From NCBI GenBank assembly GCA_020721005.1, contig DYNP01000008.1:62001-126000 (forward strand): 64,000 nt of DNA, in the 5' to 3' direction. The notes under the pieces are model-generated. The model saw nothing but the letters and a program-made list of their open reading frames with translations, was not told where the DNA came from and did no database searches. Positions within the stretch are counted from its first letter, which is position 1, and the number at the start of each line of letters is the position of its first letter. This DNA is from Thiomargarita sp. Its GTDB lineage: Bacteria > Pseudomonadota > Gammaproteobacteria > Beggiatoales > Beggiatoaceae. This document shows, piece after piece, positions 59,546 through 64,000 of the stretch. Made by a program: the position numbers and the translations under genes.

Positions 59546-60961
59546 TTAATCTTGATCAGACTGATATTCTGCTTGCAATTCTTGATAGCGGGCTTCTATG
59601 CGGGACAGTAGGGGAGGCGGTAAATTTTCTCGTTGCCGGGCAATTTCCAATTGCACAATAGCCAATTCAAGTTGTCCAGACCAATAAAAATGCTCAGCCA
59701 ATGCCAAGTCACTTTCAGGCAATTCTCCCGTTTTTTGATAAGCAGTGGCCAGTAAATGATAGTATTGGGGATGCCCAGTCTTCTCCAATTTTAACAACAA
59801 AGATTTTGCCTCAAGTCCCAAATTTTGTTGTAACAATTTATCAGCATATTCCAAACTTAACAAAGCATCATTAGGATAAATTTGTAGCGCTTGTTCATAC
59901 ACTTGCAAGGCTGCTGAACGCTGTTCCTGCAACCAAGCCAGTTGAGCTTTTAGGGAATGATAAACCACTCGATCTACATCGTTTTCGACTAACCAATTGA
60001 TTTGCTGCTCAGCCTCGAACAATTTCCTTTTTTGAAGTAAACTCAAAGCCAAAGCATAATGGACAGCTCGCTCATCTCGATAACGTCCTTCCTTTAACAT
60101 AGACTGTAATTTTTTGAGCAATTGCCCCACTTCTTTTTCAGTTAATACCCACAATTTAGCCTTGGCTAAATGATAAGCTGGCGAATCCATTTGCCATTTT
60201 GTAACATATTCCTCTGCCCGATCTTGGGCTTCGGCAATCCGTTCCTCATTTACAGGATGAGTACGCAAAAAACTGGGAATATTGTTATTTTGAATCTGTT
60301 CTTGAGGTCGAAGTCGTTCAAAAAATGAGGACATACCTCGCGGATCGTAGCCTGCCTCCGCCAAAGTTTGCATCCCAATTCGATCAGCCTCCTTTTCATG
60401 TTCAAGTGTAAAATTCAATTGCATTTGAATGCTACCTGCAATGACAGAAGTCAAAGCAGCCTCAGCAAGAGCCGGATTTTGACCAGATACCGCTATCGCA
60501 GCAATCAAAATCGCCATTTTAACCAAGGAAAACGGTTGACTGCCTTCAGCAGTACGCGCAACATGACGTTGAGTTACATGTGCAATTTCGTGAGCGATAA
60601 CCGAAGCCAATTCACTTTCATTGCGAGAATGGAGAATTAAACCACTGTGAATTGCAATCATCCCTCCCGGCACTGCAAAAGCATTAATACTCTTCTCTTC
60701 AATCACGAAAAATTGGAACGATTGAGTGGGTTGCTGGCTAAAAGAAGCAAGACGTTGTCCCAAAGAATTGATATAATTATTCACCTCTGGATCTTCAATG
60801 ACATGAACTTTGTTACGTAATTGACGAAAAAACGTCCGTCCCATCTGACTTTCCTCGGACAATGAAAACACCGTATTGGCCGAAGTGCCCATATCTGGTA
60901 AATTTACGGCACTGCAATATGTACTGATGGCATAAAATATAAACCAAAAATAGCGCATCAT
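59546..60961 (-). CDS. bepA: BepA-like periplasmic M48 metalloprotease with TPR domain
   Basis: BepA is a periplasmic chaperone/protease for outer-membrane assembly (LptD maturation, BamA quality control). It has 471 residues: a signal peptide (about 1-18), the M48 zinc site H124-E125-x-x-H128 (AHEIAHVTQRH), the loop FAVPGGMIAIHSGL, and later EKEADRIG with the third ligand. TPR repeats fill the last 200 residues. GGAGG precedes the ATG pair at 60961/60958. It is a single gene, convergent with dacB. Confidence 0.9.
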   Translation of the reverse strand: MMRYFWFIFYAISTYCSAVNLPDMGTSANTVFSLSEESQMGRTFFRQLRNKVHVIEDPEVNNYINSLGQRLASFSQQPTQSFQFFVIEEKSINAFAVPGGMIAIHSGLILHSRNESELASVIAHEIAHVTQRHVARTAEGSQPFSLVKMAILIAAIAVSGQNPALAEAALTSVIAGSIQMQLNFTLEHEKEADRIGMQTLAEAGYDPRGMSSFFERLRPQEQIQNNNIPSFLRTHPVNEERIAEAQDRAEEYVTKWQMDSPAYHLAKAKLWVLTEKEVGQLLKKLQSMLKEGRYRDERAVHYALALSLLQKRKLFEAEQQINWLVENDVDRVVYHSLKAQLAWLQEQRSAALQVYEQALQIYPNDALLSLEYADKLLQQNLGLEAKSLLLKLEKTGHPQYYHLLATAYQKTGELPESDLALAEHFYWSGQLELAIVQLEIARQRENLPPPLLSRIEARYQELQAEYQSDQD

Positions 60962-61334: not shown

Positions 61335-61664
61335 ATGTTGGTTAAAGAAATTGACCCACAAGAACTGGCCAAATGGTTAGCCGAAGACAAGCCGCCAGTA
61401 TTGATTGACGTGCGAACCTTACAAGAAATGGCTCAAGCCTCCATACCCAATGGCAAAGCCCTGCCCTTAAGTCTACTTCCTTTAAGAACTGATGAAATTC
61501 CCCAAAATGAACAAGTCGTTTTTTACTGTCGGACGGGTGCCCGCTCCGCCCAAGCCTGTCTCTACATGGCCCAACGCGGCTACCAAAATGTGTATAATCT
61601 ACATGGAGGCATCGTCAGTTGGATCCGCAACGGCTTACCTGTATCCCCAATGACCTTCAATTAA
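61335..61664 (+). CDS. Rhodanese-like sulfurtransferase
   Basis: The 109-residue single-domain rhodanese has VLIDVRTLQEMAQASIPNGKALPL at the start and the active loop C-R-T-G-A-R (Cys at about residue 64), then LYMAQRGYQNVYNLHGGI. It transfers sulfane sulfur to cyanide, thioredoxin or an unknown acceptor. The Arg/Gly-type loop suggests a sulfurtransferase rather than phosphatase. It is cytoplasmic. It precedes the globin-Mop genes by 124 bases. Confidence 0.9.
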   Translation: MLVKEIDPQELAKWLAEDKPPVLIDVRTLQEMAQASIPNGKALPLSLLPLRTDEIPQNEQVVFYCRTGARSAQACLYMAQRGYQNVYNLHGGIVSWIRNGLPVSPMTFN

Positions 61665-61788: not shown

Positions 61789-62652
61789 ATGAACACTGAA
61801 TTAATAGGACAAACCTGGGATAAATTGGCCGATCGACAAAAAGAACTCGGACGAACCTTCTTCACGCAACTGTTCGAACAATTTCCTCAATACAAACCCT
61901 TGTTCTCAGAAACCCTCGATCGGCAATTAGACAAGATTATTGAAACCATGGCCATGGTTGCCCGCATTGCCAACGACACTGAAGTCCTACATCCCAAAAT
62001 GATTAAACTGGGGATGAAACACAGCCAATTCAAACTCAACAAAGAAGACTTGCAGAATTTCAAACAAGTCTTTCTAGACGTATTGACCTCATTCTGTTTG
62101 GAAACCTGGACCGAAGAAAGACGTCAAGCTTGGGAAGAAGTTTTTGACCAACGCATTATCCCCTACATGGTAGAGGGTCTAAAACAACCAGAGCCCAAGG
62201 CCCAAACCTTTACTGACATCAAGAAACGAACCAGTGTCCGCAACCAATTGCTGGGGACCGTTCTCCATATCAAACCCCGTATGTATCATGCTGAAGTAAT
62301 GCTAAAATTAATGGGAGGCCAAGAACTCATGGCCATTCTCACTCTAGACAGCATCAATCGCTTGGGACTTACTGAAGGCAGTCAAGCTCATGTCCTCATC
62401 CGAGCTCCTCACCTGATTCTCGTCAGAGAAAACTGCCAACTGAAATTCAGCGCCACCAACTACCTATGTGGAAAAGTAGTTGAAATCCAACAAGCCCGTC
62501 TGAATACCGAAGTTACCCTGGAATTACAAGGTGGAGACCTGTTGAAAGCCATGGTTTTTACCGAATCAGTTGAAGATTTGGGTATCAAGTTCGGAGAACG
62601 ATTCTGTGGTATTCTCAAAGCCAGTAATGTAGTACTTGCCGTCGAAGAATAA
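61789..62652 (+). CDS. Globin fused to two Mop/TOBE molybdate-binding domains (paralogue 1)
   Basis: GAGGA precedes ATG 61789. The 287-residue cytoplasmic protein has a bacterial haemoglobin-like globin at about 1-135: FFTQLFEQFPQYKPLFSE with the CD1-type Phe39, a Gln at 46 in the E-helix position, and LGMKHSQFKL with candidate proximal His78. Two Mop/TOBE units follow: 147-213 (SVRNQLLGTVLHIKP ... SINRLGLTEGSQAHVLIRAPHLIL) and 217-287 (FSATNYLCGKVVEIQQ ... ILKASNVVLAVEE). Mop units bind molybdate or tungstate and oligomerise in ModE, ModG and ModC. I know no characterised globin-Mop protein. Possible roles include NO or oxygen-linked molybdate storage or sensing; that is inference. A paralogue follows after 36 bases. 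Confidence 0.82.
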   Translation: MNTELIGQTWDKLADRQKELGRTFFTQLFEQFPQYKPLFSETLDRQLDKIIETMAMVARIANDTEVLHPKMIKLGMKHSQFKLNKEDLQNFKQVFLDVLTSFCLETWTEERRQAWEEVFDQRIIPYMVEGLKQPEPKAQTFTDIKKRTSVRNQLLGTVLHIKPRMYHAEVMLKLMGGQELMAILTLDSINRLGLTEGSQAHVLIRAPHLILVRENCQLKFSATNYLCGKVVEIQQARLNTEVTLELQGGDLLKAMVFTESVEDLGIKFGERFCGILKASNVVLAVEE

Positions 62653-62688
62653 TTAAATCACTACAACTAAACGGAGGATGGAGAATTT

Positions 62689-63558
62689 ATGAACTCAGAA
62701 TTACTGGGACAAACCTGGGACAGTCTGGCTGGCAAACAGGAGGAATTGATCCGAACCTTTTATCAACGCCTGTTCGAAAAGTATCCGGAATACAATCACT
62801 TGTTTTCCGAATCATTTGAACGACAAATGGGAAAAATGATTGAGACCATGGCTCTGCTAGCCAGAATCTCACACGAAACAGAAGTTACCCACCCCAAAAT
62901 GGTTAAATTGGGAGAACGACATACCCAATTCAAACTGGAACCCGAAGACTTGCAACGCTTCAAAACCCTGTTTGTAGAAGTGCTCTCAGAATACTGTGCT
63001 GAAAGCTGGACCACCGACTGCCAACAAGCTTGGCAAGAAGTCTTTGACAAACGAGTCATTCCCTATATGACTGAAGGTTTCAAAACCTCTGAAACCCCTT
63101 CTCAAATCGATATGAAACCCATCAGCAATCGCACCAGTATTCGCAACCAACTGATTGGGACTGTCAAATCCATCAATCGCCGAATATACCATGGAGACGT
63201 TGTCCTCGAATTAAAGGGAGGAGAAACTGTCTCAGCCACCTTAACCCTGCACAGCATCAACAAAATGCAACTGACTGAGGGCAATCAAGCCCACATTCTT
63301 ATCAGAGCACCCCACTTGATTTTAGCTCGTGCAGACAGTGGTCTCAAATTCAGCGCTGGCAACCGCTTATGCGGTCAAGTCATCCATATTGAACAAGCCC
63401 GTTTGAGTGCAGAAATTACTCTACAATTGAAGGGTGAACAACGCCTGAAAGCCATTGTTTCCCAAGAAGCCATCAGTGATCTGGGAATCAAAGAAGGAGA
63501 AAGCATCTGTGCCATATTCAAGGGTTCTAATGTTGTATTGGCGGTAGAGGAAAAATAA
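62689..63558 (+). CDS. Globin fused to two Mop/TOBE molybdate-binding domains (paralogue 2)
   Basis: GGAG lies five bases before ATG 62689. The product is 289 residues with the same architecture as the gene before it. The globin part has FYQRLFEKYPEYNHLFSE (Phe39), Gln46 and LGERHTQFKL (candidate proximal His78). The first Mop unit has SIRNQLIGTVKSINRR and INKMQLTEGNQAHILIRAPHLIL; the second has FSAGNRLCGQVIHIEQ and IFKGSNVVLAVEE. The two genes clearly arose by duplication but differ through both domains, so the copy is not recent. Both copies keep the haem positions and the Mop signature, suggesting selection on both functions. Confidence 0.82.
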   Translation: MNSELLGQTWDSLAGKQEELIRTFYQRLFEKYPEYNHLFSESFERQMGKMIETMALLARISHETEVTHPKMVKLGERHTQFKLEPEDLQRFKTLFVEVLSEYCAESWTTDCQQAWQEVFDKRVIPYMTEGFKTSETPSQIDMKPISNRTSIRNQLIGTVKSINRRIYHGDVVLELKGGETVSATLTLHSINKMQLTEGNQAHILIRAPHLILARADSGLKFSAGNRLCGQVIHIEQARLSAEITLQLKGEQRLKAIVSQEAISDLGIKEGESICAIFKGSNVVLAVEEK

Positions 63559-63709: not shown

Positions 63710-64000
63710 ATGCAAGATGACACCATTCGTCTCATTGTTATTGAAGAATCTGCTAATGATGCGGAAGTCATTCTCAACAGCTTACGCAAAGCTCGTTATC
63801 CCATTCGGCCCCGCCATGTCGAAGATGAAGAAGACCTTCAAGAAGCGTTGACTGAACAAGAATGGGACCTTATCATTTCTGTACCCCAAATCGGAGAAGT
63901 TGGAATTGGACTCTCGGTTATCCAAGTCTTCCAAATGGTTAAGTCCTGTAAACAAGACATTCCCATCATTGTACTCCTCAACAAATTCGATGGCAAAAGT
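63710..64000 (+). CDS. FimX-like protein with degenerate receiver domain, 3' end cut by window
   Basis: ATG 63710 follows GGAG by nine bases and the frame is open for 97 codons to the edge. The residues read as a receiver fold (DTIRLIVIEESANDAEVIL, RHVEDEEDLQEAL, WDLIISVPQIGEV), but the strand 3 position that carries the phosphorylated Asp is Val/Pro, so it should not be phosphorylated. This start closely resembles FimX-type proteins (receiver-PAS-GGDEF-EAL), c-di-GMP effectors of type IV pilus assembly. The C-terminal domains are outside the window. Confidence 0.65.
   Translation, partial: MQDDTIRLIVIEESANDAEVILNSLRKARYPIRPRHVEDEEDLQEALTEQEWDLIISVPQIGEVGIGLSVIQVFQMVKSCKQDIPIIVLLNKFDGKS

Follow-up and report, generated by a model that had tools for sequence, protein, structure and literature searches.

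The window analysed here is a 64,000-nucleotide stretch of the genome of a Thiomargarita sp., whose assembly is 4.05 Mb long and 99.7% complete. Near its end lie two adjacent open reading frames on the forward strand, at positions 61789 to 62652 (fusion protein a, P0001, 287 aa) and 62689 to 63558 (fusion protein b, P0002, 289 aa). Both are intact, they are separated by a gap of 36 bp, and a Shine-Dalgarno-like stretch, recognised by eye, precedes each. The two proteins are 59% identical to each other, which bears out an earlier, sequence-only reading of the pair as adjacent paralogues. That reading had also proposed that each joins a globin to two Mop units (Mop1 and Mop2), and profile scans confirmed this for both: Pfam Globin (PF00042) matched with E values of 1e-9 (a) and 5.7e-13 (b), Pfam TOBE with 1.1e-18 and 2.5e-18, and the NCBIfam Mop model TIGR00638 with 1.5e-33 and 1.2e-31, the last two over two stretches per protein. 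The globin and the Mop/TOBE matches exceed the curated cut-offs of their families in both proteins, and the TIGR00638 scores (114.6 bits for a and 108.5 bits for b, against a cut-off of 55) place the Mop units in the molbindin family. The fusions are the sole PF00042 matches in this genome, which holds one truncated globin elsewhere. Pfam and NCBIfam scans found no winged helix-turn-helix (HTH) domain (TIGR00637) in either protein, and Roadblock/LC7 was absent from their Pfam matches up to an E value of 1. The C terminus carries no reductase domain (FAD/NAD, Hmp type) but Mop-Mop instead, and NF009805 matches the globin part only.

The globin domain, by its Pfam extent, covers positions 61855 to 62151 in a and 62755 to 63051 in b. 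Haem residues were read from an alignment of 29 globin rows (of which L032, L033 and L034 are distant, L032 and L034 being from genomes of the family though labelled outside); protein a was also aligned to Hell's Gate globin I. Both proteins have CD1 Phe39, E7 Gln46, E10 Lys49 and, at F8, the candidate proximal His78 (codons at 62020 to 62022 and 62920 to 62922), so the haem residues picked out beforehand are present in each; B10 is Phe25 in a and Tyr25 in b. With a globin fold in the Pfam matches and in the predicted model, Phe39 and His78 mark both as F-type globins. Mop1 (62227 to 62427 in a, 63130 to 63330 in b) retains S4, R6 and T40 in both proteins and has Arg in place of K60. Mop2 retains S4 and K60 in both; in a (62440 to 62646) R6 is replaced by Thr and T40 by Phe, and in b (63343 to 63549) R6 is replaced by Gly and position 40 is Ser. 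Two Mop starts per protein had been noticed in the sequence: the two units are there, but the second motif is altered to SATN (a) or SAGN (b) and is not SxRN.

Upstream of the pair lie an M48-peptidase-like gene on the reverse strand (59546 to 60961; HExxH seen by eye) and a forward-strand single-domain rhodanese (61335 to 61664; Pfam Rhodanese, E value of 6.8e-17). Directly downstream, also on the forward strand, begins a FimX-like PAS-GGDEF-EAL protein of 700 aa (63710 to 64000, extending beyond the window; L004:5711-7813; FimX 4j40, E value of 5e-78), which is a neighbour only and has no counterpart in the corresponding stretch of G007, the other genome with a tandem. The block of M48-peptidase-like gene, rhodanese, fusion a and fusion b is common only to the window's genome (G000) and G007 among the contexts compared; gene order is not kept beyond it, and a conserved operon was rejected. 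Twenty neighbour proteins were scanned, 19 of them from next to a fusion and 1 from next to a separate globin; 18 had Pfam matches, largely to housekeeping or unrelated families (DapB, SHMT, ScpB, sugar-nucleotide genes, mechanosensitive channels, DsbD, an HTH protein and a group II intron), and none was a molybdenum gene. The group II intron reverse transcriptase (L039:9126-11471) adjoins the fusion gene of G016. An FNR-like upstream box was considered and rejected: of the 14 starts scanned, 6 have a one-mismatch site ahead of them, at scattered distances and in a count made without a chance control.

In the window's family, 12 of the 42 genomes have the fusion, as 14 proteins in all, since G000 and G007 each have a tandem pair; five of the 42 have a close globin that lacks Mop. 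No full-length fusion was found outside the family among the matches listed from samples of 369 class and 398 phylum genomes, which overlap and each include the window's genome; the matches listed there are globin-only or di-Mop-only. These searches used thresholds of 1e-15 and 1e-30, with at most six candidates per genome scored. Two short peptide patterns, run against a named genome collection, gave 11 loci, titled Thiotrichaceae bacterium, Candidatus Thiomargarita nelsonii, Thiomargarita sp., Candidatus Parabeggiatoa, Gammaproteobacteria bacterium and Thioploca sp. (the last with the globin only). Viral contigs and PHROGs yielded no relative of the fusion, and of 71 matching plasmid records none covered 80% of the query, the best ten matching the di-Mop half only.

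The monomer model of protein b, made by AlphaFold2 on 14 sequences, comprises a globin fold and a ModG-like di-Mop (mean pLDDT 84.1, pTM 0.49), with linker residues 134 to 143 below a pLDDT of 50; the domains are well formed, and the low pTM leaves their relative placement open. The best solved match of its di-Mop half is ModG (Z 22.6; 1.3 Å over 141 residues), followed by the di-Mop of ModE (Z 19.9). Its globin part matches Hell's Gate globin I with Z 17.5, and other globins score alike (Z 16.4 to 17.7 among the matches listed), including wild-type Vitreoscilla haemoglobin (Z 16.9); a Foldseek search was run on the same model beside the Z-score comparison. From the ModG fold and symmetry, applied to monomer models, we infer a ModG-like trimer in which Mop1 pairs with Mop2: if three Mop1 units sit at one pole of a 3-fold trimer and three Mop2 units at the other, then on geometric grounds each 2-fold would bring a Mop1 together with a Mop2.

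This pairing matters for the oxyanion sites. In Tub, as described in PMC11980592, the type-2 site takes side chains from Ser4 and Lys60 of one unit and both backbone and side chain from Ser40 of the 2-fold neighbour, with further backbone contributions from Arg6 and Ala61, and the type-1 site is formed by the backbone of residues 20-22. The 4-40-60 spacing is identical in Mop1 of the reference ModE, and in Mop2 one extra residue lies between 4 and 40. Site A was defined as Ser4 and Lys60 of Mop1 with residue 40 of Mop2, and site B as Ser4 and Lys60 of Mop2 with Thr40 of Mop1; residues were tabulated for 61 di-Mop rows and 29 globin rows. None of the 14 fusions has the strict ligands of site A intact (4 of 14 do if Arg is accepted for Lys), 6 have those of site B (12 with Arg), and among non-fused di-Mops each site is intact in 46 of 47. 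Lys60 of Mop1 is Arg in 11 fusions, Gly in 1 and still Lys in 2; Mop2 has Ser or Thr at position 40 in 7 of the 14, and Arg6 of Mop1 is retained in 6 of 14. The general Mop residues persist, with Asn7 in 28 of 28 units and Gly11 in both units of all 14 fusions. In site B, Ser4 is present in 14 and Thr40 in 13 of the 14, and this near invariance makes a remaining oxyanion site plausible.

At least 10 changes on the tree are needed to account for the three side chains of site A, as against 4 for those of site B, although one change in each Lys60 count may fall in a non-fused row. The type-2 ligand columns alone do not differ significantly (78 of 140 cells retained versus 300 of 420; two-sided p 0.14). 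Site columns that include type-1 residues retain 94 of 196 cells versus 284 of 364 for other conserved columns (one-sided p 0.002), in related rows and with the type-1 residues chosen after the first test had been seen. The only departure of protein b from site A is Lys to Arg, which leaves it uncertain whether binding has been lost there. It is plausible from these patterns that at most one oxyanion site per chain remains in the di-Mop of the fusions.

The origin of the di-Mop was examined in the 61-row tree, from which L030, L031, L135 and L143 (fewer than 130 model positions) were left out, as were G014 C444, C24 and C128, G010 C2:367446, G028 C1:449974 and lower-ranked class and phylum matches. 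The 14 fused di-Mops fall in a 27-row family clade with nine ModEs and four stand-alone di-Mops (support 96/94), within which they form two groups; the AU test does not reject one clade for all of them (p 0.447). In the globin tree one clade (100/99) unites the fusions with five separate globins of the family and four single-domain globins from outside it. By a pattern of our own making, the end of the ModE linker precedes the di-Mop in 6 of 14 fusions, 9 of 10 family ModEs and none of 4 family stand-alone di-Mops (outside the family, 13 of 27 ModEs and 1 of 6 stand-alone di-Mops), for example MRIINMQTSA in a fusion and MHRLNMQTSA in a family ModE; the stand-alone di-Mop of G014 carries NMQTSA though it misses the pattern. 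TIGR00637 was run on 7 of the 10 family ModEs compared and matches all 7 at an E value of 6e-27 or better, 3 of them above the cut-off. The ModE of the window's genome adjoins modA on another contig and falls outside the 27-row clade. This protein (L005:5701-6519) groups with the ModE of another family (100/99) and not with the family ModEs, which suggests transfer.

Probably, then, the di-Mop of a ModE, minus its DNA-binding domain, joined a separate globin, and a ModE is the likely donor rather than a stand-alone di-Mop derived from one. We infer that the two partners, still separate in the Thioploca-like genomes G002 and G026, were joined with loss of the HTH. On an rpoB tree the fusion requires five changes, and the Thioploca-like genomes, with separate globin and ModE, are nested within a fusion clade, so that loss, transfer and a second fusion fit this tree equally; in it the row of G011 is a wrong frame (a 496-aa ORF, with the rpoB match in a 90-aa frame), those of G034 and G061 are fragments, and G060 is absent. 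The rpoB of the window's genome (G000:C133:192099-197804, outside the window) lies in a 1913-aa open frame with large in-frame insertions, possibly inteins, separating the matched parts, and long frames occur in G007, G025, G020, G014, G021 and G018. Mutual exclusion of fusion and ModE was considered and rejected as too weak: ModE-length di-Mop frames occur in 2 of 12 fusion genomes versus 9 of 30 others, with G014, G024, G028 and G030 counted without an HTH scan.

We favour, with slightly more confidence than doubt, the interpretation that the fusion is an F-type single-domain haem globin trimerised by a di-Mop captured from ModE, with no more than one oxyanion site per chain. Decay of one of the two molybdate sites per chain points to what is probably a haemoglobin on a borrowed three-part scaffold, and oligomerisation of the globin by Mop, which the sequence-only reading had offered as its alternative, fits best. 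By sequence and model, each chain consists of a globin like Hell's Gate globin I, followed by a short linker and a di-Mop with the ModG fold; self-assembly of the di-Mop as a ModG-like trimer would set three globins around a compact core. ModE would have lost its DNA-binding part, with the formerly separate globin taking that place. With site A broken or weakened and site B apparently retained, its Lys often changed to Arg, a residual oxyanion site is possible; a trimer would then hold at most about three type-2 oxyanions, as structural or weakly regulatory ligands, and the molybdate signalling of ModE is expected to be lost. The working end would be the haem, and the pocket residues shared by the two window proteins (CD1 Phe, E7 Gln, E10 Lys and F8 His) would suit O2 or NO binding or Lys/His ligand switching. 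Sulphur bacteria of this kind live at the oxic-anoxic interface, and NO or O2 chemistry or sensing there would be the most likely use.

An unlikely alternative, close to what the sequence-only reading had preferred, is a molybdate-coupled haem sensor, in which an oxyanion in the di-Mop alters the globin, or the haem state gates molybdate, and O2 or NO is thereby linked to molybdenum supply. The side chains of site B are complete in both window proteins, which are among the six fusions counted above, and the upstream rhodanese resembles, below their cut-offs, the rhodanese part of MoeB/MoeZ. The ModE di-Mop is moreover a ligand-driven actuator: according to PMC3589368, it responds to molybdate when linked to fluorescent proteins, and that response is lost in a double mutant with Thr changed to Ala in the binding sites. 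Against such coupling, site A is broken in every fusion (in four of them only by Lys to Arg), and Lys60 of Mop1 is replaced in 12 of 14.

The specific proposal of coupling to molybdate supply for nitrate reductase is not supported. NarG scores above its cut-off in 16 of the 42 family genomes, the window's genome not among them, and NapA gave no match there at 1e-30; the neighbours scanned, as noted, include no molybdenum gene. The fusion is present without NarG or NapA above cut-off in G000, G007, G021 and G023, and likewise in G011, where NarG is cut by the contig end (1022 bits, cut-off 1084); thus the fusion seems not to depend on these enzymes. Other molybdenum enzymes exist, and the partial NarG match of the window's genome sits in an operon distantly related to the type II DMSO-reductase family, which is in keeping with a molybdate-coupled sensor. 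In that operon (L182:132-5656), alpha, beta and gamma subunits all score below their cut-offs.

A bolder and quite improbable variant is a ModE repressor turned haem machine. Here the one oxyanion site that survives in each chain would communicate with the haem, for instance by Lys-E10/His-F8 switching; an oxyanion would then be captured or released according to O2, NO or redox state, or would itself tune the haem.

Across the family, all 14 fusions have CD1 Phe and E10 Lys; according to PMC11203436, E10 Lys occupies the distal haem site in HGbRL and may serve as a ligand in Hell's Gate globin I. At F8, 11 fusions have His and 3 have Tyr (loci L041, L043 and L044; genomes G011, G029 and G023), the Tyr forms falling in two gene-tree groups; B10 is Tyr in 11 of 14; and E7 is Gln in 5 of 14 and elsewhere His or one of eight other residues. 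Together, Tyr at F8 and the wide variation at E7 mean that haem binding may not be general. It is distinctly improbable that in much of the family the globin has ceased to work with haem and instead contacts other proteins or small molecules as a module of the scaffold. This variation and a Tyr78 form (L083) that is still modelled with a globin fold (mean pLDDT 84.6) count in favour of such a module, but both window proteins have His at F8, as do most fusions, CD1 Phe and E10 Lys are invariant, and the globin part appears from substitution rates to be mostly under purifying selection. NG86 dN/dS was 0.09 to 0.36 in 19 of 24 domain comparisons and 0.61 in one (Mop1 of the closest pair), with no value in 4; YN00 gave 0.14 to 0.67 in 9 comparisons, the highest in the closest pair.

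It is very improbable that the fusion is simply a molbindin, storing molybdate, to which a globin was added by chance: ModG is the best fold match and both proteins pass the Mop cut-off, yet the storage sites are the decaying part, the fusions lack the molbindin set of Ser4, Ser/Thr40 and Lys60 in both units, and the same sites are retained in 4 of 4 family stand-alone di-Mops compared.

On the favoured reading, a regulatory domain that senses metal, and that seems to have lost its output, would have become attached to a haemoglobin and been retained even as half of the metal sites decayed. The asymmetric decay of the sites predicts a trimer with a maximum of about three type-2 oxyanions, and relatives with a separate globin and ModE, set against relatives with the fusion, provide a natural comparison set. 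If the haem-coupled variant were true, giant sulphur bacteria would possess a haem-oxyanion switch tying molybdate or another oxyanion to O2, NO or redox state. The architecture appears to be undescribed, in agreement with the sequence-only reading. Literature searches, outside the scope of which most subscription papers fall, gave no paper on globin with TOBE, on a Mop domain with molybdate or on a globin-molybdate fusion; a search on Thiomargarita and globin gave one unrelated paper, and a term search of the 2006 globin census gave no word beginning with molybd and no TOBE.

Globin chimaeras are known, and the fusions can be set beside these and beside the systems from which their parts derive. 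They share with ModE a homologous di-Mop and, in several cases, the end of its linker; unlike ModE, they carry a globin where it has the HTH, and their site A ligands are lost or changed. With ModG and the molbindins Mop and Tub they share the di-Mop fold and Asn7 and Gly11 in both units, but they add a globin and retain the ligand residues only in part. The window proteins resemble Hell's Gate globin I and other F-type single-domain globins in fold, CD1 Phe, E7 Gln and F8 His, with E10 Lys invariant among the fusions; they differ in the additional C-terminal di-Mop, and E7 and F8 vary in other fusions. HGbRL of Methylacidiphilum likewise joins a related globin (3wfw, E value of 1.7e-7) to a small second domain and has the E10 Lys found throughout the fusions (PMC11203436), but its second domain is Roadblock/LC7 in place of the di-Mop. 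Finally, the globin-PAS and globin-chemoreceptor proteins of other Gammaproteobacteria (L027-L029) have an N-terminal Pfam Globin domain that is matched by the globin profile of the fusions, whereas their other domains are PAS, HAMP or MCP rather than Mop and they occupy a separate branch of the globin tree.
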